This document shows, piece after piece, positions 42,788 to 61,240 of a stretch of 64,000 bases of DNA. How positions within the stretch are numbered: the first letter of the stretch is position 1; the number at the start of each line of letters is the position of its first letter. The stretch comes from Phaeospirillum sp. (lineage in GTDB: Bacteria > Pseudomonadota > Alphaproteobacteria > Rhodospirillales > Magnetospirillaceae), in the NCBI GenBank assembly GCA_030651575.1, contig JAUSFB010000044.1, positions 124,001 to 188,000 of the forward strand, in the 5' to 3' direction. The notes under the pieces were generated by a model that was not told the origin of the DNA, did not search any database, and saw only the letters and a list, made by a program, of their open reading frames with translations. A program made the position numbers and the translations under genes.

Positions 42788-42974
42788 CGGCCATCACGCG
42801 GAACAGGCTGCACGCCATCGGCATCCATCGCCCTTGCAATGAGCCGCGGCTCGGCCTAGATTTCGCTCGCGCCTTAGATCTTTATCATAACAGGCCCTTG
42901 CGCCACCCTGGACCGACCGGAGCCTTCCGTGTCGGATTTTTGCGTTGGCGGCCCGACAGTCACGGGGGCCGGCG

Positions 42975-44201
42975 ATGATCGACGTCCTCCTGAACTTCAT
43001 CGCGAATCAGGCCGGGAACGAGGTATTCTCCGGCGGACTGGCCCTGGGCTTTCTCGGTGGAGCTCTGGCCTTCGCCACGGCTCTTGCCCGGAATGCCGTT
43101 CGCAGACTGGCGTCCCACGCCCTGCCCACCTTGCGGGTTGATGGCCGGACCAAGGCCTTCCGTCATCTCGAAGCCTGGCTGCACGATCACCCCTATACCC
43201 GCCGGTGCCGGAATCTTGCGGTGGCCTGTTTCGTCCGGGAGAGTTTCCATGAGCCCGAGGAACAGCCTGTGTGGCTGGTTCCCGGTCCTGGCAGCCATTT
43301 GCTGCGACATCGCGGCGGCTGGCTGCTGCTGCTGCGCGAGGCGGTCGAGGCCGATGCGAGGCAGAAGGATCGAGAGGTCATCACCCTGACCGCCCTCAGC
43401 CTTCGCCGCGATTACCTGCGGTCGTTCATGGAGGAACTGGCCGCCCGCTATGACCAGCGGGCCAATTCGGTCATCGTCCATGGGCCGTCGGAGTTTGGCG
43501 AGTGGGAGGAGATCGCCCGTGCGCCCCGCCGTCCGCTGTCCTCGGTCATCACCGCTCCCGGTCTCTCGGAATCGCTGCTTCAGGATGCCCAGATTTTCCT
43601 GGAGCGTCGCGACTGGTACGCCGAGCGAGGCATTCCCTGGCGGCGGGGCTATCTGTTCCAGGGGCCGCCGGGAACTGGGAAAACCAGCCTGATTCGTGCC
43701 CTGGCCAGCGAGCTGGACATGGACCTGGCCATACTCGATCTGGCGTCGCCCAGGCTGGATGATGCCGCCCTGCGCCGCTATCTGGCCGCGGTGCCGAGCA
43801 AAGCCGCCCTGGTGTTCGAGGATATCGACGCGGCGGCCCCGACACGGGAGTCCGCCGAAGCCAAGATCACCCTGTCCGGCCTGCTCAATGCCTTGGACGG
43901 TGTCGCGGCGGCCGAGGGAAGGCTGCTGTTCATGACCACCAACCATCCGGAACGTCTCGACCCGGCCCTGATCCGGCCGGGACGCATCGATCGGATCGCG
44001 GAGATTGGGCCACTGGGACCGGCGGATGCGGGCCGCATGGTCCTGCGCTTTCACCCGGAACTGCCCGAACTTGCCCAATCCGTGGAAGCGGCGCTGGCCG
44101 GTGGTGGCATTTCGGCCGCCGCTTTGCAGGGACACCTCCTGCTCCACCAGAGCGATCCGTGGCGGATCCCGCAGGTTCTTTCCCAGGGCAGAGAGGGCTA
44201 A
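42975..44201 (+). CDS. BCS1-like AAA ATPase
   Basis: 408 aa from the ATG at 42975. An N-terminal hydrophobic stretch (about 18-38) may anchor it to the membrane. A domain of about 180 residues follows, then the AAA core: Walker A GPPGTGKTS (about 230), Walker B ALVFEDIDAA, sensor FMTTNHPERLD and arginine finger RPGRID. This layout matches BCS1, the mitochondrial AAA translocase family, and its bacterial relatives of unknown role. It converges with a metallophosphoesterase gene, their 3' ends overlapping by 4 bases. It sits inside the repeat-flanked accessory module. Confidence 0.75.
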   Translation: MIDVLLNFIANQAGNEVFSGGLALGFLGGALAFATALARNAVRRLASHALPTLRVDGRTKAFRHLEAWLHDHPYTRRCRNLAVACFVRESFHEPEEQPVWLVPGPGSHLLRHRGGWLLLLREAVEADARQKDREVITLTALSLRRDYLRSFMEELAARYDQRANSVIVHGPSEFGEWEEIARAPRRPLSSVITAPGLSESLLQDAQIFLERRDWYAERGIPWRRGYLFQGPPGTGKTSLIRALASELDMDLAILDLASPRLDDAALRRYLAAVPSKAALVFEDIDAAAPTRESAEAKITLSGLLNALDGVAAAEGRLLFMTTNHPERLDPALIRPGRIDRIAEIGPLGPADAGRMVLRFHPELPELAQSVEAALAGGGISAAALQGHLLLHQSDPWRIPQVLSQGREG

Positions 44202-45082: not shown

Positions 45083-45509
45083 GGAGGCTCCGATTTATCC
45101 TTTCGGCGTCAGGATATCATGTGAGGGACGCTGACAGATCCTTCCTCCATGGCGGTGGCGCACGCCTCCCCCCTTTGGACTCCTACGCCTCGCTAAGAGG
45201 GGGCGTACCTCAGACGGGGTACATTTGTGGGGAACAGGTCAGACCGATCCGAAAAATCTAGCTTTGGACAGGATCGATTGTCGCCCCATAGATGTGAGAT
45301 GCTGAAGCTGCTGATCTACAGGGTATAGATTAAGCGCGGAAAGGGGGCGTCGAGAGCACACTGACTAGCGGCCGTTTCTCTCCAACCCAAAAGGGCGCAG
45401 AGTTGGCACTGCGTACAACCATCTTAGGTTGATAGTTTGTCGCAATCCACTATTATGCTTTGCGCTGATGCGGTCAGCCGACACCGCTGCGGTTCAGGCA
45501 GGAGGCACA
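45083..45509. other. 427-base stretch without a gene
   Basis: It holds the promoter side of the metallophosphoesterase gene, an imperfect GC-rich inverted repeat around 45160-45210, the right copy of the 45-bp repeat and the leader of the HNH gene. No convincing protein frame or RNA gene was seen. The change from module to defence island falls here. Confidence 0.6.
45242..45286 (+). repeat. 45-bp direct repeat, right copy
   Basis: Same orientation as the copy at 41082-41126, with five mismatches. It marks the right side of the module that holds the small hypothetical, HTH-like, BCS1-like and metallophosphoesterase genes. Confidence 0.7.
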
Positions 45510-46268
45510 GTGGCCAACCCAACTCAAGCGACGCTCAAGCGCCTATTTGCCCAATCAGGCGAATTCTGCACGCACCCCAATTGCGGTCGCCATGTGATCG
45601 ACCGCGCCACGGGAGTGGTTATGGTGGAAGTCTGCCACATTAATGCGCGAAGCCCTCGTGGCCCCAGATATGATCCTGCGCAGACCGACAAAGAGCGGAA
45701 TGCCTATGACAACCTAATCCTTCTCTGTGGAGACCATCATAAGTTGGTGGATGCTCAGCGAGAGGAATACTCATCCGAAAAGCTGCGCGAGATGAAACTG
45801 ACCCATGAACGCAGCTTTGGGCGCGATGTACAGGCGGGCGACGCTGCCATCGCCAAAAGGCTCCTGCAGGTGTACGTCCAGAACCTCTCCGTGGGGCACA
45901 TATCGGGCGACGTTGTCGTCAACGGCGCCAAAACCGTGAACATTCGAACCTCGACCAAGAAAGTGACGATAGCGCCAGCGCTAGGTACTATCGGCGCGGA
46001 CCAGCAACTGCTCCGCTACATCGACTACCTGATCAGGCGATACATCGAATTTGCGAGCAAGGACCCATTCCAGGCCCGCAGCTTTAACCCCGGTAGGTTC
46101 CGAAAGAACTTGGAGAGACGGTTCCGAGCGCATTGGAAAAATCTGTCTGTCGAGCGGGCCGATGAGTTGATCAAGTACCTTCAGGCCTGCATCGATAAGA
46201 CTGGCCTTGCGAAGCTCAACAGGAGCAAAGGGCACCGCTCCTATTCAAACCTCCAAGAATATGAATAA
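45510..46268 (+). CDS. HNH nuclease-domain protein
   Basis: 252 aa from a GTG at 45510, chosen because a perfect GGAGG lies four bases upstream (45501-45505). The frame is open from 45429 but that part has no ribosome site. The N-terminal HNH fold shows CTHPNCGRHVI, EVCHINARSPRGPRY, and NLILLCGDHHKLVD, which give the zinc cysteines and catalytic histidines. A short beta-type linker (VNGAKTVNIRTSTKK) precedes a helical C-terminal domain of about 80 residues. It probably cuts DNA or RNA. It is followed after 151 bases by a dGTPase gene, with a GGGG/CCCC mini-hairpin at 46344-46357 between them. Confidence 0.78.
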   Translation: MANPTQATLKRLFAQSGEFCTHPNCGRHVIDRATGVVMVEVCHINARSPRGPRYDPAQTDKERNAYDNLILLCGDHHKLVDAQREEYSSEKLREMKLTHERSFGRDVQAGDAAIAKRLLQVYVQNLSVGHISGDVVVNGAKTVNIRTSTKKVTIAPALGTIGADQQLLRYIDYLIRRYIEFASKDPFQARSFNPGRFRKNLERRFRAHWKNLSVERADELIKYLQACIDKTGLAKLNRSKGHRSYSNLQEYE

Positions 46269-46419: not shown

Positions 46420-47760
46420 ATGGTTTGGCTTGAGCGGCGGTCCGGCTGGCAAAAAAAGTCCCAGGATGCTCGTACACCAGGCGATGTCGATTACGGGCGT
46501 GTGATCCACTCCGCTTCGTTCAGGCGGCTACAAGGCAAGACCCAAATCCTCAATCTAGGTGACAGCGACTTCTATCGCACCAGGCTGACACACTCCCTTG
46601 AGGTTGCCCAAATTGCAGCGGGCCTCGGCGCCCAGTTGCGCCACAGTTTCCCTGATCACGATGCGGTTAGTTATGTTCCAGACCGCAGCATGATACAGGC
46701 CATCGCCTGCACGCACGATCTTGGCCATCCGCCGTTCGGACACGGTGGGGAGGTTGCGCTGAATTACTGCATGCGGGAGAGCGGTGGCTTCGAGGGGAAC
46801 GGACAAACTCTTCGGATTCTCTCAAGATTAGAAAAATTCTCGCGAGCCGATGGTGCGGACCTCTCCCGCGAGGCGTTGCTTGGTGTACTGAAATACCCAG
46901 TGGCCTATAGTGCCGCTGCAAATCCAAGAATCGTTCCGAGGATGCTTATCGACACTAGTGGCACCCCACTGCTTGATCGCAAGGCGTCCAAGCCGCCCAA
47001 ATGCTACATGGATAGCGAGGCAGGCGTTGTTTCCTGGTTGCTTGAGCCGCTTTCTGAGGGTGATAGATCTCTCTTTCAAGCTAGTGACCAGCAACCGGAG
47101 AAGCACGCCAAGGCGCGGCACAAGTCCTTTGCATGCAGCATCATGGATCTCGCCGACGACATAAGTTTCGGCATCCATGACATGGAGGATGCACTGGCAT
47201 TGCGGTTGGTCGACGAAGCTGGGTTCCGTAGGCACGTGACTCCCAAGAGGTGCGAAGGTCTGCTCGACTATCTCAATTCCAGCTACGCCGGCAAATATGG
47301 AAACGACGTCTATGAAGGTCTTATAGGGCGAATTTTTGCTGATGGTTCCGAGCGAAAACACCAGATCAACCGCATCCTGAATTTTGTCATCCCCAGCGTA
47401 GAGATTGAGGAGTTTCCTGAATTTGAGGAACCGCGCCTGCGCTTTCGCGCTCATCTCCCTAAGCCTGTTGCACAATTCGTCGAAGCTGTGAAGGACTTCG
47501 TTCGTGAAGAAGTCATACTAACGCCGAGCGTCCAGCATCTGGAATTCAAAGGACAGATGATGGTGATTTCGGTATTTGAGGTTCTGAAATCTGACCCTAA
47601 GAGCTTCCTTCCGTCAGATATTTTTGCCAGATACGAGCGTAGCTCTGACCCGCTCCGCGATATCTGCGACTATGTTGCGGGAATGACGGACACCTACCTT
47701 TTGAAGACATATGAGCGTCTCTTTTCGCCGAGGATTGGGTCTGTCTTCGACAAGCTGTAA
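46420..47760 (+). CDS. dgt: dGTPase-family HD phosphohydrolase
   Basis: 446 aa, with a G-rich ribosome site before the ATG. The dGTPase pattern is complete: RTRLTHSLEVAQIA (H58), HDLGHPPFGHGGE (H99, D100, H103) and a later aspartate block DLADDISFG. The enzyme splits dGTP or other dNTPs into nucleoside and triphosphate. Stand-alone dNTPases of this family lower the dNTP pool and can block phage. It lies between an HNH nuclease gene and the Wadjet-like operon, which supports a defence role (inference). Confidence 0.85.
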   Translation: MVWLERRSGWQKKSQDARTPGDVDYGRVIHSASFRRLQGKTQILNLGDSDFYRTRLTHSLEVAQIAAGLGAQLRHSFPDHDAVSYVPDRSMIQAIACTHDLGHPPFGHGGEVALNYCMRESGGFEGNGQTLRILSRLEKFSRADGADLSREALLGVLKYPVAYSAAANPRIVPRMLIDTSGTPLLDRKASKPPKCYMDSEAGVVSWLLEPLSEGDRSLFQASDQQPEKHAKARHKSFACSIMDLADDISFGIHDMEDALALRLVDEAGFRRHVTPKRCEGLLDYLNSSYAGKYGNDVYEGLIGRIFADGSERKHQINRILNFVIPSVEIEEFPEFEEPRLRFRAHLPKPVAQFVEAVKDFVREEVILTPSVQHLEFKGQMMVISVFEVLKSDPKSFLPSDIFARYERSSDPLRDICDYVAGMTDTYLLKTYERLFSPRIGSVFDKL

Positions 47761-47899: not shown

Positions 47900-49084
47900 T
47901 TAGGGTTCCGGACCTGGAGACGGACTCTGCCTCAGGTTGGGAAAATTATCAGAAAACGGGTCAGTGGCTGCCGGCGCATAGGGATGCAAAACGATTTCTC
48001 CCGGCCACGGGTCGCAGACCGCCTCCTGATCTACAGCCCTGTCTTTCACAGCTTCGAGAAGCGTAAACAGGGCTGGGTCGTCCAGGGCAGCACTCCTCTG
48101 GTCGGTACTCTTGCCTGCAAAGGAACCGTATGGGTGGCTGTTGCCGCGCCGTAACTCGGCCTCCATGAGACCGTAGGCAGCAGACAACCTGAGGCCGGGA
48201 ATGGCTGACCGAAGGCTCGCATAGATCCGCAGTCCTTCGCGGTCCAAGTCTCCCCAGAAAAGAATGCATTGCGCGGAAGCAAGAATTTCCGCCAGGGCGT
48301 ACCTGGGGCCCACGGCCGGACAGGACCGGAGACCGCCAACCTTCAACCGCAATCCGAGATTTTCCATGGATAATCCATACCCAAAGGAGCAGATGGCCAG
48401 CGCTTGATTGCGCGTTTCTGAACCCGCAAAAGCGGAAAAGGCGGCCATGTTCTCGATAATAAGCACGGTGTCGGCGCGGCCGTCGTCCGGACCTGCTGTC
48501 AGCACGTGTTGGATGCGATTGAGGGATGCCTCCGCGGGAATCCCAAATGCGGAGGCGACCTGTGTTCCGACGATGTCGAGGGCCTTCGACGAGCCGAGGA
48601 GAAATTTCGCCGAAGTGATATAGGTGTCCGCCAAAGTACCGTTCCGAACGGCCTCAGAGAGTGAGAGAAGGCCTTCGATCAGGGCGGCTTGGTCAGCCGG
48701 ATTAAGGGAAAGGACCGCAGAAGGGGCGCACATGAGGGCATCGAACTGAATGCGAGAAAGATTGTCTTCTCTGCTCAAAATAGCCTGCTGCCACATTTTG
48801 ACGTTTTCCGGGCGCTCTTCCTCTGGGAGAGCGAGGGAAACATTGGTCAATGGACGCATGCCGTGGGCGAATTGCCCTGCGACGATCCCGCATTCTTGCA
48901 GGCAACGTAAAACCTCTGCGATCACCGGCGCGTTGAACCGCGCTGGCAGGTTTTTCTCCAGGATCGTCCAAAGATGACCCTTCCGGATCTGCCGGCCATT
49001 CGTTTTGGTGCGAAGGACGGCGAGAACGATTTCAAGATCACCTGACTCAAGAAGGCCCATGTTCGTGCTTTCCGTCAGTTCCAT
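47900..49084 (-). CDS. jetD: Wadjet-like TOPRIM nuclease subunit JetD
   Basis: 394 aa from the ATG at 49084, which has AAGG six bases upstream; this overlaps the jetC stop by 38 bases. The C-terminal TOPRIM domain shows LIIENMAAF (E211) and FWGDLDREGLRIY (D279, D281), matching the E and DxD metal ligands of JetD proteins. The N-terminal half is helical with winged-helix features. In known Wadjet systems JetD cuts the plasmid DNA held by the SMC complex. It is the last gene of the operon and converges on the dGTPase gene. Confidence 0.75.
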   Translation of the reverse strand: MELTESTNMGLLESGDLEIVLAVLRTKTNGRQIRKGHLWTILEKNLPARFNAPVIAEVLRCLQECGIVAGQFAHGMRPLTNVSLALPEEERPENVKMWQQAILSREDNLSRIQFDALMCAPSAVLSLNPADQAALIEGLLSLSEAVRNGTLADTYITSAKFLLGSSKALDIVGTQVASAFGIPAEASLNRIQHVLTAGPDDGRADTVLIIENMAAFSAFAGSETRNQALAICSFGYGLSMENLGLRLKVGGLRSCPAVGPRYALAEILASAQCILFWGDLDREGLRIYASLRSAIPGLRLSAAYGLMEAELRRGNSHPYGSFAGKSTDQRSAALDDPALFTLLEAVKDRAVDQEAVCDPWPGEIVLHPYAPAATDPFSDNFPNLRQSPSPGPEP

Positions 49085-52000
49085 CGCCATCCTTCATTAT
49101 GAAGAGGTCACCCCCCTCCGCCGTTTTCGATAAAGGCCTCTTCGCGGGCTTGCGACGGCCGTGCACCGTCGTGACTACCATTTCGCCGGGCTCCGTCTTC
49201 CGAATGGTTCCGTCCCGATTTTGGGTGACAATTTCCGTCCAGACATGGCGTCCGTCCCCATCATGCCCAATAGCGCTCTTTCCGATCAACATGCGAGGAA
49301 AGATGTCGAAGTTATTTCGGTAGTGAGGCGGATGCAAAAACCCAATGATCTGAAAATTGCTCTGAAGCTTCCCGCAATTTCCCAGGGAGAGATCGATCAA
49401 GTCGTCATCCGAAAGATTAGAGAACAACCCATCGATAATTAGCACGCCCTGGGCGCTCTTCTCTGCCTGGCGTCTTTGTGCCTGCGTCAGCGACAACGCC
49501 GAACCACACTCGATGGCATCACGCTTAAAGGCAAATTCCGCCAGCTTCACCGTCCACAGGAGTTCGAGGGATGCAAACTCGCCTTGGCTTACGCCGCTAT
49601 CGAAAGGGAACCGTCCGTCGCCACCGATCGCCTTATGGCGGACGTAAATCCGTGCCTCTGGGAAGAGGCGGGGATAAAGCACATCTGCAATTTGTGCCCG
49701 GATGTCGGCACGATGCAGCTCTTCTTGAGCAGCCCCCTTCTTCTTACTTAGATCCTCTTCTGCCTTTTGCTCGATCCCCTCGATCTTGTCCAGAACATCA
49801 ACCAGGATGCGTTCCCATTCCTTCGCATCGACAATTGTCACGTCAAGTTCAAAAGTCGTATCCGGAGTCGCTTTCAGGATAGATTCAAGGTAACTTAGAT
49901 GTGATTTGACGCCGTCCTCGATCAGGTACTGCCAAGTTTGCATATAAGCCTTGCGAGTTTCCGCAAGGTCGTTGGCCTCGCGATCCCTCTGATCTTCCTT
50001 TTCCTTGAGATCAACTTCAAGAAGTCTAATTTGCGGGCCGACTGCGGTGGGAGAGCAACGGCGGAACTGCTCGAAGATAGGTGCCATCAACTCCTCGCCA
50101 CTCTCATCGCGAAGGAGCTCATCTCGCCTCCTCTGGTATGCGTCTAGTGTGTTCCTCGCCTTGTTGAAAGCGGTTTTCGCGCGTTCTTCCTCACTATCGC
50201 GGCCCTTCATATAATCCATAACGGTGCTGGCCTGACTTATGAAGCTCGTTCTGCTGGCGCTCTCAAGATAGATATTGGGGTCATTTAGGAGATCGCGAAG
50301 ATTCTCGATCGTTCCATAAAGGGAATCTTCCTCATCCAGCTGGGGAGAAATTTCCGTCATCTGGCGAGAGGCTTCGATGAAATCCTGTACCTTCCGATAT
50401 CGATAGATGGTCAGTGCGGCGAGATTGTCTAAGGCAACCTCAAGGTTCACCAAACCGGAAACCGCACCAGTCAGAGCGGTCCTCTTTCGCCCGAGGGCGT
50501 CAATGCTCTCCCGCAAAGACTGAGTCGATACGCGGAGACGTTCGATACGTTCGGTCGGATCGTCAGCATTGTCTCGACTATCGACAAATTGTTGGGCCTT
50601 CCCAAAGTCGATACCGTGCTGCCGATCCTCAAGTTGCCGGCGTTCCGCTTCGATAGCATCTAGATGGGTTGCGGATCGGGCGAACCATTCAAAATCGCCA
50701 TTATCTAGCCGCTGCTGCAGTGTTCTGAGCGCGGGAATTTCCATAGCGTTTCGTCGGGCCTCGCTTGCACCTACCTCGGCGGCCTTCCGGGCGGAAACGA
50801 GGCTTGGCAGCTTTTTCCGCAAGGTCGCCACTTCCTCGCCGACCATTTTCTCCATCGTCCGTGCATCGCGATATTCATGATCCCGTTTCGCTAATTCCTC
50901 CTGGCCGCCTGTCGCCAAGAAATCACGCCAATTTCGAATTGCCTCGAATGCCTCCGGCGAGGTCTTGAATTTGGCATTCTCGACAAGCTCCGTTAGATCC
51001 GGAGCGACCGAAAAGGCCGCCAACAAGGCTTCTTCGCCCCCCTTGTCGGCGAAATTACGCGCTGCTTCCGCCGCCCTGACGAGAGGACCTTCCGACCGCA
51101 GACGATGAGCATCTGCCTTGTTAGTTTTATGCAGGTCCGACAAAGTGGACAGCCGTTCCCGCAACTGATCCTTCTGGCGTTCCAAGGCTTTTGGATCGAC
51201 CATGCTTTCCACGATGTCGTTCCGGCAACCCAGCATCATTCCCGCCGCGACAGTTCCGTCCCAGGTGATCCGCTCGCCGCCGTCTTTTAGGAAGTTCGTA
51301 AGGCCCACTGTAAGGAAGACAGGAACCTGAATATCTTTTTCGTCGAGAATGGCGCGGACCCCACGAGCATCCGCCTCGCTGTCAAACACGGGCGCACTTA
51401 GAAGAGGATTGAAGAACGACCCCATGCGGCGACGATCCTCGTCAATCTTGAGGGCGTCGGTGATGACATCGCTTACGGTCCGCCATGTTTTGTCGGCAGG
51501 AATCATATCTACAGCACGAAGCACGTCGCCGGCAGGAGCCACAGCGGCCGTTTTGAGCCGCTCTAGACGCGCTTTTGCCTCATCGATCTCTTGATCCCCT
51601 TGGGCTATGGCGACGGCCAGGCGGTCCCGTTCCCTATCGACCCACTGTAGCCATTCCTGTGCCGTCTGCCCGCCCTCTTCCTCAAAGAAGTGCGCAGCGC
51701 GTTCATTGAGGTCGCTGAGGATCTTGATTATGTCTTGGGTCGCACGGAGATTGGTCTCGGCTGTACTTAAGGCGTCACGAAGATCGTTCTCCATGTTCGC
51801 TTCTGGCTCGCGGTCCCCAAAAAGATCTACATATCTTTTCTGGAAGGACGCCTTTGCCTGAAGTTCCACCAAATGCAGCTCCGCCTTCTGGCGCCGTGTC
51901 TCACAGGTACGGTGAGCACTCTCCCGCTCGGCAAGGTGTGCTTGGCTCGCGTCCAGGGTATCGACAGCTTCTGTAAAGCCGGCCTCAGCCATGTCGAGCG

Positions 52001-53795
52001 CAATCTGGAGGACGTTGGCTTCAGCTTCCGGCGTCCAATTATCATCGGCTGACGTTTGACGGGTGGTGTAGGCGTCATAAAGCGCCTCGAGTTCCCCCCT
52101 GCGTTTGATGATTTTGTGGATTGTCTTGTCGGCGGTCTCAATTGCCTCACGTAACCGCGCACCGGCTTTTCCGGGCTCCTCGCATTCCTCTGAGGAAAAC
52201 CCACGATCCTGCATTGACCGGTAATGGCTTTCATTCTCGGTCAGTTTTTCTTTCTGCACATTCAGTTTGTCGAGCTCACGAGATTCGGTCCCGAGCTTGG
52301 CTTCTAACTCCCTCTGCTTGCTGACAGCATCATCAATTTCCTTCCGTCGCATCCGGCCAAGTGCCCGGAACGGGTTGGTGTCAAGTTTCTCGATAGTGGC
52401 GAACGCTTCCCGGACGGCCTCCTTGATGGCCTGCTTCGGACGCCTCCAGCGGTTAGTCTCCTCGATAAGACGGATTATATCTGCCTCGGTCAGCCAGCGG
52501 GGTGGCTTGCCCCCATAGGTTTTTGGAGTATTTGCGGATCGAATATTACACGTGTTTTCAATTACTTCCCTGGCTTCAAGGCCGTAGCTTTCCCCCAGGG
52601 CACGCCGAAGAACTAGTGGCTGCTCTTCATCGCCTAAACCCGCCAGATCACCCATCACATACCGGCTCCACAGAGCCGGCTGCCCATCCCGGGCACCGTA
52701 CAGGCCGGGAACCCATACTATGTGAGGAAGGATGTCCGCCGCCAAGCCATCGAGGCCGACCTCCTCCGGAGTACGCAATAGGCCGGGAAGTGGTCTTTTC
52801 GTGATGAGATCGTCAAACAGGCCGACCACATGGGAAAGCGCCTTGACTGCCTCGATCTGCTCGCGCTCTGCCCGGACCGCCTCAATGGCCGCCTTTTCTA
52901 GAGGGCGTATCTTATCAAGAGCCTTCTCCACCTTCTTAATGCGCTGCTCCTGGCGTTCGACATGCCGGCTCGCCGCCAGAAGCTCCCTGCCAGAACGGCT
53001 AATAGAGTCCTCGAAATACTGGCCGTCCTGCTCGAATTCTTCGTCTCCGTTCCGTTTCGTGATCGACTGGATGCGCGGGCCAGCCAGCAGCTCAGGAGCG
53101 ATGTGCTGCCAAAAGAAGCGGGTATCGAAGGGCGCTCCGCGCGTGTCTCGGCCGGTCGACACTTTGAACAGTTCCGTTGATTTGTCGCCGGCCCCCCGTT
53201 TCAGATGGCTGACGTTTCGCGCGAGGCTGTTTTTTGGCATGTGATGGTGGACCAGGCTGAGCCACCTGATCTTATCGGCAAAGGGCCTCACATCCCAATG
53301 GCTGCCGGGAATGGCCTTCACTGCATCGCGGAACTCATCATTGGTAAGAAGTTCCCGCGATCCATCCGGAAGGACGTTGAACGTCGGCGCAGCGTCGAAT
53401 TCACGGGGGAAATAATAATAGATGACGTCGCCGTTGGAATTTCCGCACGCGCCAAACGTCGTCCGTCGACCCGGAAGATCCTCTCCCAGGGCAACATGCA
53501 TCTGAGTACCGAGATGGATGTTTACATCGATAAACTCGACCCGGACATGGCTCCAGATTCCCACTTTCTCAGGAGCCATTCGACTCTTCATCTCCGCACG
53601 CAGCGTCTTATCCAGAGATAGGATGCCAAGTACGCTGGAAAGAATGGATGTCTTGCCCCGGCCGTTAGGGATTTGCACGACAGAGCTGAACCCACCAAAC
53701 GAGAACCGCTCCCCGCGGTATCGTGGGTGCCATCCGATCATGGCCTTCTTCTCGTTCAGGAAATTCGTGACTTCGATGCCGCCAAGCAAGGACAT
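49047..53795 (-). CDS. jetC: SMC/MukB-like ATPase, divergent Wadjet JetC-type subunit
   Basis: 1582 aa, longer than usual JetC (about 1100 aa). The N-terminal ATPase lobe has a P-loop IPNGRGKTS (G45, K48, T49) in which the first glycine is isoleucine. Long coiled coils (about 265-310, 450-780 and 870-1350) surround a central hinge-like part (about 790-860, FFNPLLSAPVFDSEAD). The C-terminal lobe has a signature-like SQGEFASLELL (about 1395-1410). Walker B reads GVLIIDGLFSNLS, so the usual catalytic glutamate after the aspartate is a glycine. It may hydrolyse ATP with altered chemistry or may use another residue. It is 16 bases downstream of the KITE gene. Confidence 0.78.
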   Translation of the reverse strand: MSLLGGIEVTNFLNEKKAMIGWHPRYRGERFSFGGFSSVVQIPNGRGKTSILSSVLGILSLDKTLRAEMKSRMAPEKVGIWSHVRVEFIDVNIHLGTQMHVALGEDLPGRRTTFGACGNSNGDVIYYYFPREFDAAPTFNVLPDGSRELLTNDEFRDAVKAIPGSHWDVRPFADKIRWLSLVHHHMPKNSLARNVSHLKRGAGDKSTELFKVSTGRDTRGAPFDTRFFWQHIAPELLAGPRIQSITKRNGDEEFEQDGQYFEDSISRSGRELLAASRHVERQEQRIKKVEKALDKIRPLEKAAIEAVRAEREQIEAVKALSHVVGLFDDLITKRPLPGLLRTPEEVGLDGLAADILPHIVWVPGLYGARDGQPALWSRYVMGDLAGLGDEEQPLVLRRALGESYGLEAREVIENTCNIRSANTPKTYGGKPPRWLTEADIIRLIEETNRWRRPKQAIKEAVREAFATIEKLDTNPFRALGRMRRKEIDDAVSKQRELEAKLGTESRELDKLNVQKEKLTENESHYRSMQDRGFSSEECEEPGKAGARLREAIETADKTIHKIIKRRGELEALYDAYTTRQTSADDNWTPEAEANVLQIALDMAEAGFTEAVDTLDASQAHLAERESAHRTCETRRQKAELHLVELQAKASFQKRYVDLFGDREPEANMENDLRDALSTAETNLRATQDIIKILSDLNERAAHFFEEEGGQTAQEWLQWVDRERDRLAVAIAQGDQEIDEAKARLERLKTAAVAPAGDVLRAVDMIPADKTWRTVSDVITDALKIDEDRRRMGSFFNPLLSAPVFDSEADARGVRAILDEKDIQVPVFLTVGLTNFLKDGGERITWDGTVAAGMMLGCRNDIVESMVDPKALERQKDQLRERLSTLSDLHKTNKADAHRLRSEGPLVRAAEAARNFADKGGEEALLAAFSVAPDLTELVENAKFKTSPEAFEAIRNWRDFLATGGQEELAKRDHEYRDARTMEKMVGEEVATLRKKLPSLVSARKAAEVGASEARRNAMEIPALRTLQQRLDNGDFEWFARSATHLDAIEAERRQLEDRQHGIDFGKAQQFVDSRDNADDPTERIERLRVSTQSLRESIDALGRKRTALTGAVSGLVNLEVALDNLAALTIYRYRKVQDFIEASRQMTEISPQLDEEDSLYGTIENLRDLLNDPNIYLESASRTSFISQASTVMDYMKGRDSEEERAKTAFNKARNTLDAYQRRRDELLRDESGEELMAPIFEQFRRCSPTAVGPQIRLLEVDLKEKEDQRDREANDLAETRKAYMQTWQYLIEDGVKSHLSYLESILKATPDTTFELDVTIVDAKEWERILVDVLDKIEGIEQKAEEDLSKKKGAAQEELHRADIRAQIADVLYPRLFPEARIYVRHKAIGGDGRFPFDSGVSQGEFASLELLWTVKLAEFAFKRDAIECGSALSLTQAQRRQAEKSAQGVLIIDGLFSNLSDDDLIDLSLGNCGKLQSNFQIIGFLHPPHYRNNFDIFPRMLIGKSAIGHDGDGRHVWTEIVTQNRDGTIRKTEPGEMVVTTVHGRRKPAKRPLSKTAEGGDLFIMKDGDGTDGKHEHGPS

Positions 53796-53811
53796 GGATC
53801 ATTCTTCCCTG

Positions 53812-54609
53812 TTACTCGTCGTTCGCCGCGATCGAATCGCCTGTATCGTCCAATGGTGCGCCAATTTGTAAGGCAGCTTCGCTCGGGTTCTGGATCGGCA
53901 GAGTGATCAATTCGTGGAAGCCTGTTGTAACGCACCGCTCCGCCTCCTTTGCCGAAAGGAGGGTCTGCCGGTAGATCGGCTGAACCCCGTCGATAGCCTC
54001 AAGCAAACCGGCCGAAACCATGCCTTCGAGAAACGATTTCACCCGGACGGGGACTTCTGTATGAGGATCTCCGTCAAGCAGCACATCTGCAAATAGCTGC
54101 CGCCTCTCTTCATCAATTTCTGTCCGAGACAATTTCTCGATCCCGTCAATGACAGATTTTGATAGGTGATCGACGTTGAAATCCGCACCGATGAACCGCG
54201 ATATTTCGGACAAAGCGCGGCCTTCATAAAGAAGAGCCATATGATGGGCCCATATAAACAGCCACCATATCCGTGTAACCCTGGGAAGCTCTGATTTCCT
54301 CCTCTTCATCAGGTCGAGCACAGGAGAGCTTCCGCCGAAGGCAGGAGAAGCAAGATGAGGATCTCTGATAAGAAGAAATGTTCTATCCCCGAACTCGGGA
54401 CGGCCCAAACCGCCTTCGGCGATCTCCAGTGAAAAACCAAAAGATTCGAAAATTTCGACGAGTTCATCCCAATGATATTTGCTGGCATTAGATAGCAACC
54501 TGGCCACGCCGCTTTCACCACGGAGAGCCTTGCGACTGCCGCTGCCCAGTCGGGCCTGACGATGCCGCAACATGAACGTCAGGATTTTCCCCTTCTCACT
54601 TGCCAGCAT
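53812..54609 (-). CDS. jetB: KITE/MukE-like subunit, JetB-type
   Basis: 265 aa, mostly helical, with two winged-helix-like stretches (about 30-110 and 125-220). There is no enzyme motif. Position and length match the KITE protein of Wadjet and MukBEF operons, which sits between the kleisin and SMC genes and bridges them. It overlaps the kleisin stop by 14 bases. The assignment rests mainly on gene order and fold pattern. Confidence 0.6.
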   Translation of the reverse strand: MLASEKGKILTFMLRHRQARLGSGSRKALRGESGVARLLSNASKYHWDELVEIFESFGFSLEIAEGGLGRPEFGDRTFLLIRDPHLASPAFGGSSPVLDLMKRRKSELPRVTRIWWLFIWAHHMALLYEGRALSEISRFIGADFNVDHLSKSVIDGIEKLSRTEIDEERRQLFADVLLDGDPHTEVPVRVKSFLEGMVSAGLLEAIDGVQPIYRQTLLSAKEAERCVTTGFHELITLPIQNPSEAALQIGAPLDDTGDSIAANDE

Positions 54610-56119
54610 GTCGTCGCCCCATGTCGTCCGCCTTCATAAGTACGATGTTTCCCCCGACAACCTCGCCGTCTTCGAGATCCAGACGCATATTCCCGTTCAG
54701 GCCAATCGCGACGATCATATTCCCGACATGGAATAAGGGGGGCGCATGAAAGTCAGAGATGATCTCCTCAGCAATGCTAAGGGTGCTTTCCGGGAAAAAC
54801 CCCTCCCTGAAGGCATCAGCCAGCGATAACGGCCCCTCGTCGAGGCGTTTTTCTAGCCTCTCGGCTTCGCGCTCCAGCCACCGTCCGAATTGAAGGGACG
54901 CGCTCTCATCCCTCGCGGGAAATACCGTTCGGACGACGTTGGCCGTACGAGTCGGCACCGCAATGAAGTTTTGAAAATCAATTGGGTGCGGCGCCATGGT
55001 CTGCGGTGGATCCGGCACGAGTAGTCCCATGATCTTCTGCAGCGCTTCGTCGTCCATCGGCGATACAGCCATACGTAAAGACAATTGAAGAAAATCAATC
55101 GGCTGGATGAACCCGCTGCCGCGCTTCTGGATAACATTGATGCACTCAACGAAGATGTCCATAAACCCTTGCAAGGTCTGCAGCAGGTCCCTTAACCCCC
55201 CTTCAATCTCCCACCACAGGACAGCATCATCACCAGTCCTTGCAACATATTCTTGATATCCACTACGACATTGCTGTGAGGCCACACGATCTCTAGCTTT
55301 TTCTAGAGCCTCTAATGCATTCTTCATCGTCTCTTGATAACGGGTCCGGTACTCGACGTAGAACAGCCTGAGGCTATCCATGCCAGGCTGTTCTACAGCT
55401 CTGGTTATATATTCGGCCTCAATATTGATCGAGCGGACCATCTGGCGGCACAATGCGACCGCTTTGGGAAAGTCGTTCCACGCCAGTGCCCTGATGATGC
55501 TTTCGCTGATATCGCCCGTATAGATCCAGTCCCGTGCGGCCTGGGCGATCTGGATAGTTTGGTGCCCGCGCTTTGCAAGGCGCACTAACTCACCGGTTCG
55601 GGAGCGCTCTACCAGGACTGTATCTTTCGACTGAAACGCCTTCTCACCAGCGTCGCTATATCCTCCAGGCCGGCACCATATCGACGTTGGACGGCACAAC
55701 ATGCGCACGATGAAGAGAACATCCTCTTCGTTGATTTGAGGGTGTCTGCCCAGGATCATTTCCGTGAATGGCGCGAGAGGAATAAAGCTACCGGGATTGT
55801 TGAGATCTTGATTGCCAAGATAGCTCAGCAACTGAAGGCCAACATCGAGCCAAATGCCTCGATTTTCTTTGCCGGGTCGCGTCACGGATATGGCCTGCGT
55901 CGTCGATCCCGGTGTCCGCGCCAGATCATGGAGGTCTACGAGCCGGAACGCACCCATTAGCCATTGCATGGCTTCAGGTATGTCAAATTGACCAACCTCT
56001 TCTGTCGCGGAAGTTAGCTCTTCATCCTTTTCCTGCTCACCGAGGCTCATGGCATTCAGACACTCACGAAATGAAAGGCTTGCCCTTGGTGGCGTCACCC
56101 GTATGATCAGGCGATGCAT
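54596..56119 (-). CDS. jetA: Kleisin/MukF-like subunit, JetA-type
   Basis: 507 aa from the ATG at 56119; a second ATG at 56050 (MSLGEQEKDEELTS) is also possible. The N-terminal part (about 40-180) looks like a winged-helix domain, the middle is helical (about 190-310), and the C-terminal part ends in a small beta-type domain. There is no catalytic motif. The order kleisin, KITE, SMC, TOPRIM is that of jetABCD and mksFEBG, and the length fits JetA. Family-level similarity is weak, so this rests on context. Confidence 0.6.
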   Translation of the reverse strand: MHRLIIRVTPPRASLSFRECLNAMSLGEQEKDEELTSATEEVGQFDIPEAMQWLMGAFRLVDLHDLARTPGSTTQAISVTRPGKENRGIWLDVGLQLLSYLGNQDLNNPGSFIPLAPFTEMILGRHPQINEEDVLFIVRMLCRPTSIWCRPGGYSDAGEKAFQSKDTVLVERSRTGELVRLAKRGHQTIQIAQAARDWIYTGDISESIIRALAWNDFPKAVALCRQMVRSINIEAEYITRAVEQPGMDSLRLFYVEYRTRYQETMKNALEALEKARDRVASQQCRSGYQEYVARTGDDAVLWWEIEGGLRDLLQTLQGFMDIFVECINVIQKRGSGFIQPIDFLQLSLRMAVSPMDDEALQKIMGLLVPDPPQTMAPHPIDFQNFIAVPTRTANVVRTVFPARDESASLQFGRWLEREAERLEKRLDEGPLSLADAFREGFFPESTLSIAEEIISDFHAPPLFHVGNMIVAIGLNGNMRLDLEDGEVVGGNIVLMKADDMGRRHAGK

Positions 56120-57170: not shown

Positions 57171-59372
57171 ATGCATCTTTCGTCAATCCGAATCAGGAAC
57201 TACCGCAGGCTTAAGAACGTGCGCGTGGACCTCGACAGCCTGATCTCAATCTTCGTGGGCGCCAACAACAGCGGAAAAACCTCGGCCACACAGGCCATCC
57301 AGATGTTTGTAGGTGGAGCAAAGGAGAAATTTTCCATCCACGATTTCAGCGCGGAATGCTGGCAGGCGTTCAACCACGCCGGTGGCCTGTTCCCCATTCC
57401 TGATCCTGCTCCTGCTCTCCCCACAATCAGCCTGGACATCTGGTTCACGGTCACCGAGGCCGACCTTCATCGTGTGATTGACCTTCTGCCGAGCTTGTCT
57501 TGGGAGGGAACCATGCTGGGCGTCCGGGTCGAATTCGGGCCGAAATCCGTCGACGACCTCCTGAACCGCTATCATGAGGACAGCCACAAGGCCCAGGAGG
57601 CGGCCGGTGGCGGATACCGCCCTTGGCCCAAAAACCTCACGGACTATCTCTCGCGCCGCCTCCACGCCGAATACGAGCTCCGCCACTATGTGCTCGACCG
57701 CGCCCGGTTCGAAGACAAATTGGAAGAGATGCCGGGCTATACGCCCCGCCTTCTGGCTTCCGAGCCAGGCCGGGGCGGAGCAAAGGTGCTCAAATCCCTG
57801 ATCCGCGTGGACTGCCTGAACGCGCAGCGGCATCAATCCGACGATGCTTCGGGAGGGCGGTCGGAGGACCTATCGAAGTGCCTGAGCCGCTTCTACACGA
57901 AGCATCTGGAGAAAAGGGCCGACGACCACGCCGCGCTGGGCGCGCTCGCCGAGTCCGAGGCGAAGTTCAACGAGCACTTGGAAGCCGTCTTCGAGAGCAC
58001 GCTCGGACGGCTGCGGCAGCTTGGATATCCGTCCAATCCACGCCTCCAGATCAAGGCGGACCTCAAGCCTGAAACTCTGCTGAAGCAGGAGGCGCGGGTC
58101 CATTACGTGCTGGGGGATGCCAAGGAGGGCGAGCCGGCGACCTTGCCCGACAGGTACAACGGGCTTGGCTACAAGAACCTCGTCTACATGGTGGTCGAAC
58201 TGCTCAGCCTCCATAACCAGTGGCTGGACGAGGAGGAGGACGTTCCTCCGCTTCATCTGGTGTTGGTGGAGGAGCCGGAAGCCCACCTGCACGCCCAACT
58301 CCAGCAGGTGTTCATCCGCGAGGTACTCGATCTGCTGAAGGTCGAGGCCCCCGACAACGCCGCCTGCGCCAGCCAACTCGTGGTGACGACGCACTCCCCG
58401 CACATCCTTTACGAACGCGGTTTCCGGCCAATCCGCTACTTCCGGCGGATGGGTAACTTCTCGGAAGTGCTGAACCTGTCCGCGTTCTACGATGCCGAGA
58501 AGGAGGAGCGCGACTTCCTCGAACGTTACATGAAGCTGACGCATTGCGACCTGTTCTTCGCAGATGCGGCCATCCTCGTCGAAGGCAACGTCGAGAGGCT
58601 ACTCCTGCCGCTCATGATCGAGAAGGCCCAGCATGACCTCCGTTCGGTCTGTCTGAGCATCCTTGAGGTTGGCGGGGCGTTCGCCCACCGGTTCAAGACC
58701 CTTCTCGAATTCCTCGGGATCACAGCACTCGTGATAACGGACATCGACAGCGTGGTCGCCTCCCCGCCACCGGCCGAGGGCGAGGAGGACGAGGACGCAG
58801 TAGAAGAGGAGGTCGACGAGACAGACGGAGACGCGGCGCCTGTGAGACGCATTAAGGCGTGCATGGTCGGGGCGGAAGGGGCGGAGACGTCCAACCAAAC
58901 GCTGATCAAATGGCTGCCTGCCAAGCGGACCGTAGCCGAACTCCTTGGATGCGCCTCTGCCGAACGGACGCAGGAACCCGACGGAAAAAGCCTCGCCTCC
59001 GTCATGGTCACCTACCAGACGAAGCGACCGGTGCGGTGGGGAACAGAGGAGGCCGACTTGGCCGGCCGGACACTGGAAGAGGCATTCGCGCTGGAGAACC
59101 TCGACTGGTGTCAGACACCTGCCCGGAAGCATCTGGGCCTGCATGTCGCGGGCAAGGGCGACACGCAGCCGCTTGAAACGATGGCGGCCAAGCTCCATAA
59201 GCGCGTGAAGGGCTCGGGATTCGACAAGACGAAATTCGCCCTCGGGGTGCTCGCCGAAGGCCCCGAAGGTTGGTCAGTCCCCCATTACATCGCAGATGGA
59301 TTGGCTTGGCTGGCAGGGCGGATGAACCCGCCTGCTCCCGCCGAGGTTCCTGCAGAAGGGGACGAAGGATGA
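57171..59372 (+). CDS. gajA: OLD-family ATP-dependent nuclease, Gabija GajA-like
   Basis: 733 aa. The ABC-type ATPase has Walker A GANNSGKTS (about 30-38), Walker B LVLVEEPEAHLHAQ (about 363) and switch histidine VVTTHSPHIL. The C-terminal TOPRIM nuclease shows ILVEGNVERLLLPL (about 468-481) and VITDIDS (about 522-528). An acidic insert (about 533-555, rich in Glu and Asp) lies right after the DxD motif. GajA proteins are near 580 aa, so this is an enlarged form. It overlaps the helicase gene by 4 bases (ATGA). It probably nicks or cuts phage DNA. Confidence 0.82.
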   Translation: MHLSSIRIRNYRRLKNVRVDLDSLISIFVGANNSGKTSATQAIQMFVGGAKEKFSIHDFSAECWQAFNHAGGLFPIPDPAPALPTISLDIWFTVTEADLHRVIDLLPSLSWEGTMLGVRVEFGPKSVDDLLNRYHEDSHKAQEAAGGGYRPWPKNLTDYLSRRLHAEYELRHYVLDRARFEDKLEEMPGYTPRLLASEPGRGGAKVLKSLIRVDCLNAQRHQSDDASGGRSEDLSKCLSRFYTKHLEKRADDHAALGALAESEAKFNEHLEAVFESTLGRLRQLGYPSNPRLQIKADLKPETLLKQEARVHYVLGDAKEGEPATLPDRYNGLGYKNLVYMVVELLSLHNQWLDEEEDVPPLHLVLVEEPEAHLHAQLQQVFIREVLDLLKVEAPDNAACASQLVVTTHSPHILYERGFRPIRYFRRMGNFSEVLNLSAFYDAEKEERDFLERYMKLTHCDLFFADAAILVEGNVERLLLPLMIEKAQHDLRSVCLSILEVGGAFAHRFKTLLEFLGITALVITDIDSVVASPPPAEGEEDEDAVEEEVDETDGDAAPVRRIKACMVGAEGAETSNQTLIKWLPAKRTVAELLGCASAERTQEPDGKSLASVMVTYQTKRPVRWGTEEADLAGRTLEEAFALENLDWCQTPARKHLGLHVAGKGDTQPLETMAAKLHKRVKGSGFDKTKFALGVLAEGPEGWSVPHYIADGLAWLAGRMNPPAPAEVPAEGDEG

Positions 59373-61240
59373 CGACCCGCGCGGGAAAGCCCGACACGCC
59401 GGCCGATGTCGAACTTCGCGGATGCCTGGATGCCGGGCGCAGCTTTGTCATGGTCGCCGGGGCCGGCTCGGGCAAGACAACTTCCCTCGTGAAGGCTCTG
59501 GACCACCTCGGAAAATCTCGCGGAGCCAAGCTCAGGCGTTCAGGGCAGAAGATCGCCTGCATCACCTACACCGAGATCGCCAAGAACGAGATCTGGGGCG
59601 ACGTCGGCAACGACCCTCTCTTCCATGTCTCGACGATCCACAGCTTTCTCTGGAGCCTCGTGGCGCCGTTCCAGAACGACGTGAAGGAATGGACCCTCCG
59701 CCGCATCGAGGCCCGGATCGCCGAACTGGAGGAAACGGCCGTCAGCTTCGGTCCCCGGACGCAGGCGCGGACGCGCGAGAAGAACCGCGATGACATCCTT
59801 CGCTACCAGGCATACCGGGAGCCGGTTGCGCATGTCGGGCGGTTCACCTACGGAACCGGAAGCGACTACCCAAAGGGCATTCTGGGCCATGACGACATCC
59901 TGCGGATGGGTGCGGCCTTGATCGGTGAACGCCCGATTCTCCGCTCGTTGTTCGCCCGCAAGTATCCGGTTGTTTTCGTCGATGAAAGCCAGGACACGAA
60001 TCCCGAAGTGGTGGACGCGCTGATTGCTGTCGACCGGCAGGAGGGGGAAAGGTTCTGCCTTGGCTTCTTCGGCGACCCGATGCAGAAAATCTACACCTCC
60101 GGCTACGGCGCGATTCCATGCGAGCCGGGGTGGACGCAGATCACCAAACCAGAGAACTTCCGCTGTCCGACAAGCGTGCTCGAAGTCGTCAACCGTATCA
60201 GGGCTGACGGCGACGGACTGGTGCAGGTCCCCGGCAGGGAGGCTGTCATCGGAACGGCGCGGATCTTCATTCTTCCCGCTGACGGGCTGAGGAGCGCCCG
60301 CCTCCGTTCGGTGCGACGCTGGTTGTCGGAAGCCAATGGCGACCCTCTGTGGCTGGACGACGGTTCGGATGGGGACGTCCGGGTGCTCGTCATCGTCCAT
60401 CGAATGGCCGCTCTCCGACTCGGCTTCGGAGACCTGTACGCAGCGATGAACGATCGTGCGCCCTCGTCTCTGAAGGATGGGTTCCTCGACGGCACATCGT
60501 GGGCGGTCCGCCCTTTCCTCGACTATCTCCTGCCCTTGGCCGACGCAGTGGATGCCGATGACGGGTTCGGCGTCGTTTCGCTCCTGAAGGCTAACTGCCC
60601 GAGAATGGCAAAGGAGGCGGTCGCGGGCACCGAGCTCGCCGCGCTTCTGACGGAACTTCGAGAGCAGGTGCAAACCCTTGCTGGCATGTTTGCCGAAGTC
60701 GCAGATGCGTCAGTAGGGGATGTCGTCAGGTTCGTCCGCGAGACAAGATTAACGAACCTTGATGAGAGGTTCCTTCCCTATCTGGTGGGGGCAGGCGGCG
60801 GGGCTAACGCGGAAGAAAACGACGAGGTGGCCGCCATGGCGGCCTACTTCGACTGTCCCGCGAAGCAACTTCGGGGCTATCGGACCTATATCGAAGACGA
60901 ATCCCCGTTCGCCACCCATCAGGGCATCAAGGGTGCGGAATTCGAGCGCGTCCTTGCGGTGCTCGACGACGCGGAAGGCCGCCACAACCAATTTTCCTAC
61001 GAAAAGCTCTTCGGCATCGCCCCGCCATCGAAGACCGACGAGCAGAACGCCGCCGAAGGCAAGGAGACGGTCTTTGACCGAACCAGACGCCTATTCTATG
61101 TCTGCTGCTCGCGCGCAGTCAGAGATCTGGCTGTAGCCCTGTTTTCTTCTGACGTCTCTCTTGCGGAACGGAAGATAAAGGAAAGCGGAATATTTTACGA
61201 AGATTGCGTTCACGTGTTCGATGAGCTGCCTGAAGTTTAG
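59369..61240 (+). CDS. gajB: UvrD/Rep-like helicase, Gabija GajB-like
   Basis: 623 aa from the ATG at 59369, coupled to the OLD gene. Superfamily 1 motifs: Walker A VAGAGSGKTTSL (about 29-40), ITYTEIAKNE in motif Ia position, FVDESQDTNPE as motif II (about 201), QGIKGAEFERV as motif V and RRLFYVCCSRA as motif VI. GajB of Gabija is shorter (about 500 aa). The pair OLD plus UvrD is the hallmark of Gabija. The extra length is in the middle region. Confidence 0.85.
   Translation: MTTRAGKPDTPADVELRGCLDAGRSFVMVAGAGSGKTTSLVKALDHLGKSRGAKLRRSGQKIACITYTEIAKNEIWGDVGNDPLFHVSTIHSFLWSLVAPFQNDVKEWTLRRIEARIAELEETAVSFGPRTQARTREKNRDDILRYQAYREPVAHVGRFTYGTGSDYPKGILGHDDILRMGAALIGERPILRSLFARKYPVVFVDESQDTNPEVVDALIAVDRQEGERFCLGFFGDPMQKIYTSGYGAIPCEPGWTQITKPENFRCPTSVLEVVNRIRADGDGLVQVPGREAVIGTARIFILPADGLRSARLRSVRRWLSEANGDPLWLDDGSDGDVRVLVIVHRMAALRLGFGDLYAAMNDRAPSSLKDGFLDGTSWAVRPFLDYLLPLADAVDADDGFGVVSLLKANCPRMAKEAVAGTELAALLTELREQVQTLAGMFAEVADASVGDVVRFVRETRLTNLDERFLPYLVGAGGGANAEENDEVAAMAAYFDCPAKQLRGYRTYIEDESPFATHQGIKGAEFERVLAVLDDAEGRHNQFSYEKLFGIAPPSKTDEQNAAEGKETVFDRTRRLFYVCCSRAVRDLAVALFSSDVSLAERKIKESGIFYEDCVHVFDELPEV

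Follow-up and report, generated by a model that had tools for sequence, protein, structure and literature searches.

Can an SMC (structural maintenance of chromosomes) ATPase stay under selection when its Walker B motif carries glycine in place of the usual glutamate? This question is raised by a four-gene operon in a 64,000-nucleotide (nt) stretch of Phaeospirillum sp. DNA (contig JAUSFB010000044.1, positions 124,001 to 188,000; hereafter the window). The original prediction, made from the letters of the window, placed a kleisin, a KITE protein, an SMC and a TOPRIM nuclease in that order on the minus strand and proposed a divergent Wadjet/MksBEFG subtype. All four genes are present at 47900-56119, and operons of identical gene order are found again as wholes in relatives. 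The genes are as follows:

54596..56119, minus strand: kleisin-like gene, 507 amino acids (aa) as the longest open reading frame (ORF), predicted MukF/JetA-like fold
53812..54609, minus strand: KITE-like gene, 265 aa, a putative assignment from position, size and co-conservation
49047..53795, minus strand: SMC gene, 1582 aa
47900..49090, minus strand: JetD/MksG-type TOPRIM nuclease gene, 396 aa, with E213, D281 and D283 intact

The kleisin and KITE genes overlap by 14 nt, the KITE and SMC genes are separated by a 16-nt gap, and the SMC and JetD genes overlap by 44 nt. The start of the kleisin is uncertain: some relatives start near window residue 48-51, and the true start possibly lies downstream.

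A glycine fixed at the Walker B position

The length of 1582 aa, the Asp-Gly Walker B and the isoleucine as first P-loop residue, all noticed at the outset, are borne out by the sequence. The ATPase motifs of the window SMC map as follows:

53649..53672, minus strand: P-loop I42-P-N-G-R-G-K48-T49, first glycine replaced by Ile
49581..49589, minus strand: ABC signature S1403-x-G1405, conserved in 65/65
49410..49433, minus strand: predicted Walker B and D-loop D1455-G1456-L-F-S-N-L-S1462, with Gly for the usual Glu and Ser for the usual D-loop Asp
49332..49334, minus strand: H-loop histidine H1488, conserved in 65/65

The motif D-G-L-F-S-x-L-S is shared by all 66 SMCs compared (65 fetched loci plus the window), and its glycine is also found in three of three C-terminal fragments (L005, L018 and L024), which were tallied separately; a remnant (L017) stands outside all motif counts. 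Near-copies were kept (L025/L026 and L068/L069; two copies, one assembly, G1157), so that the 66 SMCs amount to fewer independent cases. The codon of G1456 in the window is GGG (49428-49430), and across the 66 SMCs all four glycine codons are used (GGC 34, GGG 24, GGT 6 and GGA 2), which indicates that selection acts on the residue. This variety, together with the presence of glycine in every SMC, excludes the sequencing error that had been named as a possible source of the motif.

The P-loop has changed along with the Walker B. Its first residue is methionine in 61 and isoleucine in three of 64 loci, and isoleucine in the window, so that Ile or Met is found in 65/65 and the two changes occur together in 65/65; one locus (L067), whose SMC frame is broken and lacks the P-loop, was left out of this count and of the lobe alignments. 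Across the 65 rows of these alignments (63 of them different, counting as about 8-9 effective sequences at the 70% identity level), K48, S1403, G1405, D1455, G1456 and H1488 are invariant. Leaving G1456 aside, these are residues that serve ATP binding and head engagement. Seven full-length relatives are 22-24% identical to the window SMC.

Five JetC proteins served as controls. PADLOC types two of them as type I, and each of the other three shares 55-95% identity with one of these two. All five have a GxxxxGKS P-loop and a DE Walker B, and their D-loop aspartate (DESFSKMD, DEAFMKMD) is a serine in the SMCs with the Asp-Gly motif (DG-SMCs). Of the residues that mark a Wadjet SMC, the DG-SMC keeps the lysine, the aspartate, the signature and the histidine, and has glycine for the Walker B glutamate in all 66 cases.

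Selection on the SMC

Loss of a catalytic residue could mean that a decaying ATPase is carried by linkage in an operon that is a defence remnant being lost. Degraded copies do occur, namely the remnant in G699 (L017), a truncated copy on plasmid pPUV-6 and the broken SMC frame of L067. However, the SMC frame is unbroken in 64/65 loci compared and the glycine is invariant despite shuffled codons. The ratio of nonsynonymous to synonymous substitution rates (dN/dS) of the SMC is 0.05-0.13 in 15/15 pairs, with 0.05-0.11 in the nine pairs that lack JetD on both sides, 0.08-0.13 in four JetD-bearing pairs and 0.12 in two mixed pairs; that of JetD is 0.22-0.36 (4 pairs). The SMC is under purifying selection, JetD-less members included. 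Decay is thus a very improbable explanation, and for the lineage as a whole we rejected it as contradicted by the SMC dN/dS.

Assignment of the Walker B motif

That D1455-G1456 is the Walker B is suggested by the order of the motifs and of the predicted strands and helices. Sequence and a low-confidence model give the C-lobe the order signature, helix, strand VLIID, D-loop, helix, strand and H-loop, and an hhalign path, itself non-significant, pairs D1455-G1456 with the DE of JetC. The matches of the C-lobe model in VIA-align include Smc-type proteins: the Smc C-lobe 1xex_B at rank 28 (Z 4.4, 91 residues, root-mean-square deviation (rmsd) 4.5, model residues 100-231), JetC 8dk3_B at rank 34 (Z 4.1) and Rad50 1f2u_B at rank 46 (Z 3.3). 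These rows are no more than suggestive. The N-lobe alone reaches a probability of 86 in the forced global mode of hhalign.

Several results weigh against this assignment. Comparison of the C-lobe with JetC and Smc by hhalign gives probabilities of 0.3 and 0.2%, which are not significant; the C-lobe model is weak (predicted local distance difference test (pLDDT) 55), and its top rows in VIA-align are unrelated proteins (best Z 6.4). Because the C-lobe has no significant alignment and a poor model, the assignment rests on motif and strand/helix order. All Foldseek matches of the model have E above 0.9, full-length alignments compared by hhalign with JetA/B/C and MksB controls give nothing significant, and a search of the PDB with the SMC profile returns at most P-loop or coiled-coil matches, the best no better than E 0.02.

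Clamp or rewired motor

In ABC ATPases that keep the residues for binding and engagement and lose the two that position and activate water, ATP-driven engagement with poor hydrolysis is predicted. Whether hydrolysis by the DG-SMC is indeed poor or absent is, judged from its motifs, an evenly balanced matter. We propose that ATP binding would engage the SMC heads around captured DNA, and that the loss of two residues, the general-base glutamate and the D-loop aspartate, would leave hydrolysis very slow or absent. The complex would then be mainly an ATP-gated clamp or switch, not a fast motor. Where JetD is encoded, as in the window, engaged complexes would present the nuclease with invading circular DNA; where it is missing, the complex would do a job on DNA that needs no nuclease.

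Findings on related complexes bear on this proposal. In the available text of PMC7617805, loading of MukBEF is abolished by the hydrolysis-deficient MukB E1407Q, and in that of PMC10123090 the hydrolysis-deficient MksB E1042Q is reported inactive. Both run contrary to the clamp: since E1407Q blocks loading, a hydrolysis-dead SMC under such selection would be surprising, and another residue may hydrolyse ATP. These Glu-to-Gln changes of MukBEF and MksBEF are engineered mutants, whereas the DG lineage is naturally without the glutamate in all members compared. A natural loss is described for LmuB, the SMC-like protein of the Lamassu defence system, in which the Walker B glutamate is changed to glutamine (available text of PMC10586767). 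Lamassu differs in its composition: LmuB is ~650 aa long with LmuA and LmuC partners in the same text, whereas the window combines a large SMC with a kleisin, a KITE-like protein and JetD; an LmuA effector with a ~650-aa LmuB is not part of the window gene content.

Candidates for a replacement catalytic residue lie in the N-lobe:

53124..53195, minus strand: N-lobe stretch G201-D224, with invariant D204-K205 and D224

The acidic residues invariant in the lobe alignments are D204, D224 and D1455, followed by E262 in 64/65 and E87 in 62/65 rows. Near the Walker B of the C-lobe, D1455 is the sole conserved acidic residue, and the next, E1339, is 116 residues away. D204 and D224, as possible hydrolysis residues, also count against a clamp. 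They are central to the alternative of a rewired but active motor, in which ATP would be hydrolysed via D204 (in a G-x-x-D-K motif), D224 or a kleisin or KITE residue, the Walker B Gly and the P-loop Ile/Met would be matched changes, and loops would be extruded as by Wadjet I. The invariance of both residues in 65/65 N-lobes, the coincidence of the P-loop and Walker B changes and the low SMC dN/dS are all consistent with such a motor, and in two of three alignment modes neither residue has an acidic counterpart in the five JetC controls. In the third mode, however, D204 falls on an Asp of three and D224 on an Asp of two JetC controls, so that both may be ordinary. The D-loop aspartate is lost as well, and in none of the models does D204 or D224 lie at the active site. 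On these sequence features, we favour a slow or hydrolysis-poor ATP-gated clamp, which we rate at about an even chance, over a motor relying on a new catalytic residue, which we regard as rather unlikely.

Relationship to Wadjet and MukBEF

The operon very probably belongs to the Wadjet/Mks group. The divergent Wadjet/MksBEFG subtype proposed at first is well supported by the profile matches of JetD, the structural matches of the kleisin and the recurring operon order. The window JetD is recognised by Pfam JetD_C at E 2e-8 (34 bits, against a cut-off of 22) and by PADLOC JetD1 at E 1.4e-14. Its profile also matches the MksG structure 8b7f (E 0.003), with the E-N and W-G-D-L-D motifs aligned, and the JetD structure 8q72 (E 0.25), with the W-G-D motif aligned. 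The JetD-type TOPRIM residues had been described as intact, and E213, D281 and D283 are indeed kept in the window; the E...DxD residues are invariant in 21/21 JetD sequences.

For the kleisin, a MukF/JetA-type protein is suggested by its structural model (pLDDT 61; 10-residue means mostly 70-89 from 90 to 330). The nine best VIA rows, with Z from 11.4 to 10.1, are chains of MukBEF, MukE-MukF, MukF(1-287) and Wadjet-II entries. They include 9gm7 (Z 11.4, 210 residues, rmsd 13.8), 9gm9 (Z 11.1, 131 residues, rmsd 2.9) and chain E of Wadjet-II 9qe0 (Z 10.4, 236 residues, rmsd 15.3); VIA titles name entries, and the identity of the MukF or JetA chain is deduced from lengths and residue ranges. In Foldseek, three MukBEF chains rank first (E 3.6e-5, 1.1e-3 and 0.018) and an E. 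coli Wadjet chain ranks seventh (E 0.11). Two points tell against a MukF/JetA fold: the first unrelated VIA row has Z 9.8, and helical bundles give middling Z by chance; and the Foldseek TM-scores to the MukBEF chains are low, at 0.14-0.21. A Z near 11 is inconclusive alone for a helical bundle, yet it is entries of this kind that fill the top rows. Sequence comparison of the kleisin with the controls by hhalign is not significant. We also note a motif at kleisin residues 59-65 (window 55925-55945), R-L-x-D-L-H-D, that is invariant in 64/64 members of at least 400 aa.

The KITE-like protein has no sequence match in the libraries, in the control comparison or in a profile search of the PDB, and profile searches of the PDB with the KITE and the kleisin find nothing relevant. 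In the profile search proposed for all four proteins, JetD matched its families, and the other three proteins gave no JetA, JetB or JetC match. Specifically, the window KITE and kleisin have no match at E up to 1 in Pfam, NCBIfam or PADLOC, and no PADLOC JetA, JetB or JetC match at E up to 1 is found in the window. The window SMC has weak matches only, to a Pfam THO subunit (E 0.02), to PADLOC LmuB through its coiled coil (7e-4) and to HamB through its P-loop (0.02). Three relatives were scanned as well, two with their SMC, KITE and kleisin against PADLOC and NCBIfam, the third with its SMC against PADLOC. Their SMCs give weak matches to JetC3 (1.5e-5), LmuB (1.9e-4, in Pseudomonas alcaligenes, and 0.003) and an archaeal SMC-related protein (0.003), and their kleisins match LeoA at 0.003 and a TRAP protein at 0.012, likewise weakly.

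Might this then be a Wadjet of the usual kind, only far out within the diversity already known, with a JetC of type II or III that already has the DG motif? Wadjet SMCs vary so much that profiles built from two sets of JetC controls fail to find any JetC structure in the PDB, which makes an absent library match weak evidence of novelty, and one relative (L037) does have the JetC3 match, with its best stretch (914-1081) in the coiled coil. Apart from that match, none to JetA, JetB or JetC is found in the window or in the scanned relatives, and the JetD is nearest to type I, whose examined JetCs have DE. A search for JetC3 in 170 genomes and 14 controls finds none anywhere, controls included. 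We consider this explanation improbable. In the open literature we find no SMC lineage described as having glycine at the Walker B Glu position, a negative that falls short of proof, as most subscription papers and preprints lie outside that scope.

Compared with Wadjet type I (JetABCD), the gene set and the order kleisin-KITE-SMC-JetD are the same, the window JetD fits the JetD1 profiles best, and the kleisin fold appears JetA/MukF-like. The DG-SMCs are, however, longer (1582-1734 aa in the eight members whose starts were matched, versus 1152-1231 in the JetC controls, n=5), have DG for DE and Ile/Met for the first P-loop glycine, and their operons have no PADLOC JetA or JetB match, the sole JetC match being the weak JetC3 one. 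With MukBEF and MksBEF the operon shares its best kleisin structural matches, which are chains of MukBEF and MukF entries, and a nuclease-free trio in one bacterial family described below; it differs in the JetD nuclease of the window.

Distribution and optional presence of JetD

Relatives were found by several routes. A truncated SMC relative on the P. aeruginosa plasmid pPUV-6 is 29% identical and already has DG; from a collection of 72,556 plasmid records, three different SMC queries pick out just pPUV-6 and a near-copy. A two-sequence alignment search found two P. alcaligenes genomes, a fragment in P. mendocina and a Shewanella metagenome-assembled genome (MAG). A JetD search found G666, a species of the window's genus, and G699 holds a remnant with a broken SMC and a JetD 88% identical. 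With an SMC C-lobe profile, matches are found in 2/17 genomes of the window's genus, 5/55 of its family, 6/297 of its order and 3/398 of its phylum, counts that include the window's genome each time and the G699 remnant in two. In a family of another class of the same phylum (f41, that of genome G955), the SMC occurs in 58/151 species and 13/24 genera, as counted with a profile that contained two members of that family and is hence tuned to it. No relative is found by scans of genome contigs and viral contigs with the single SMC, of viral contigs with alignment A3, or by tblastn in phages. Among 299 genomes, a whole-genome search with the single SMC returns only the window's own; a second such search, of 385, adds to it one match of 49 residues and 13.5 bits, taken as chance.

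JetD accompanies the SMC in some relatives only. Outside f41, six of seven full operons (window, G666, two P. alcaligenes, Shewanella, G849 and G682) have JetD, the exception being G682. In f41 the JetD-less trio is the rule: a full JetD is present in 15/58 genomes, adjoining the SMC in all 15, and absent from 43/58, of which three have short weak matches elsewhere and 40 have none. In one JetD-less genome (G1037, L114) the contig ends 205 nt past the SMC, so that absence there rests on the genome-wide search alone. On an SMC tree of 65 rows built by a quick method, the JetD label switches 11 times, with starred branches accounting for at least 9 of the switches; this tree cannot separate gain from loss, and very long branches lead to the window and three relatives. 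Several Wadjet-group members without JetD are mentioned in the available text of PMC7617805.

Two further observations concern the JetD position. In G682 (L036:4363-5490), a patatin-like phospholipase gene follows the SMC where JetD usually stands, either an effector swap or a chance neighbour; as a single case, 58 nt away, it is not claimed as a swapped effector. On another contig of the window's own genome (C79; L022:2873-4603), one ORF joins a TnsB-like part (PADLOC TnsB, E 9e-24) to a JetD C-terminal part, and may be a Tn7-like/JetD junction or a chimera.

Genomic context

The region 42945-63482 of the window is a defence island. Besides the operon it holds the following genes:

42945-44201: BCS1-like AAA ATPase with weak IetA matches
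45429-46268: HNH gene
46420-47760: anti-phage dGTPase
56188..57027, plus strand: WYL-domain regulator, divergent from the operon, with 68 nt between the genes
57171-59372: Gabija GajA
59270-61240: Gabija GajB
62583-63482: TniB

In the Shewanella MAG (L027:701-15000) a WYL gene stands at the same place as in the window, and the operon adjoins this gene and TnsE, followed by SIR2-HerA; it is probably cargo of a Tn7-like element. One P. alcaligenes copy adjoins an E2/E1/JAB gene. From these neighbours, the three JetD-bearing copies scanned sit among defence or mobile genes. On pPUV-6 (L005:9430-13140), the truncated SMC and a JetD gene adjoin a Tn3 transposase and a toxin-antitoxin pair of the PIN/RHH (ribbon-helix-helix) type.

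The setting in f41 is of another kind. In 52/59 regions one or more of the four housekeeping genes that neighbour the G955 locus are found (aminotransferase in 26, cyclopropane synthase in 34, LysR regulator in 40 and LysE in 35), and in 18 such genes stand on both sides; L038, from which the four query genes were taken, is among the regions counted. These shared neighbours point to an old chromosomal locus in most. The possibility that the DG-SMC is its host's only condensin was rejected: a canonical Smc (TIGR02168) is present in 62/62 genomes checked, above cut-off in 61 and split over two contigs in the remaining one (G1157).

Implications

Taken on its sequence features, the operon represents, by a slight preference, a distinct and so far nameless Wadjet/Mks lineage (with type I as the direct JetC comparison), in which a Gly-fixed SMC would act as an ATP-gated clamp or switch and JetD would be optional. 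More tentatively, and with the balance somewhat against it, these proteins may form a class of SMCs without glutamate-based hydrolysis on both heads, running on ATP binding or on a new residue, nuclease-free and chromosomal in one family, with JetD as an optional module. Loop extrusion and DNA loading by SMCs are held to need hydrolysis through the Walker B glutamate, and the standard proof is an engineered E-to-Q mutant. A natural lineage that always has glycine, and is under selection in distant bacteria, with Pseudomonas and Shewanella as the named carriers, would test how much of SMC function needs hydrolysis, and the repeated presence and absence of JetD would supply paired genomes for separating defence from nuclease-free roles.

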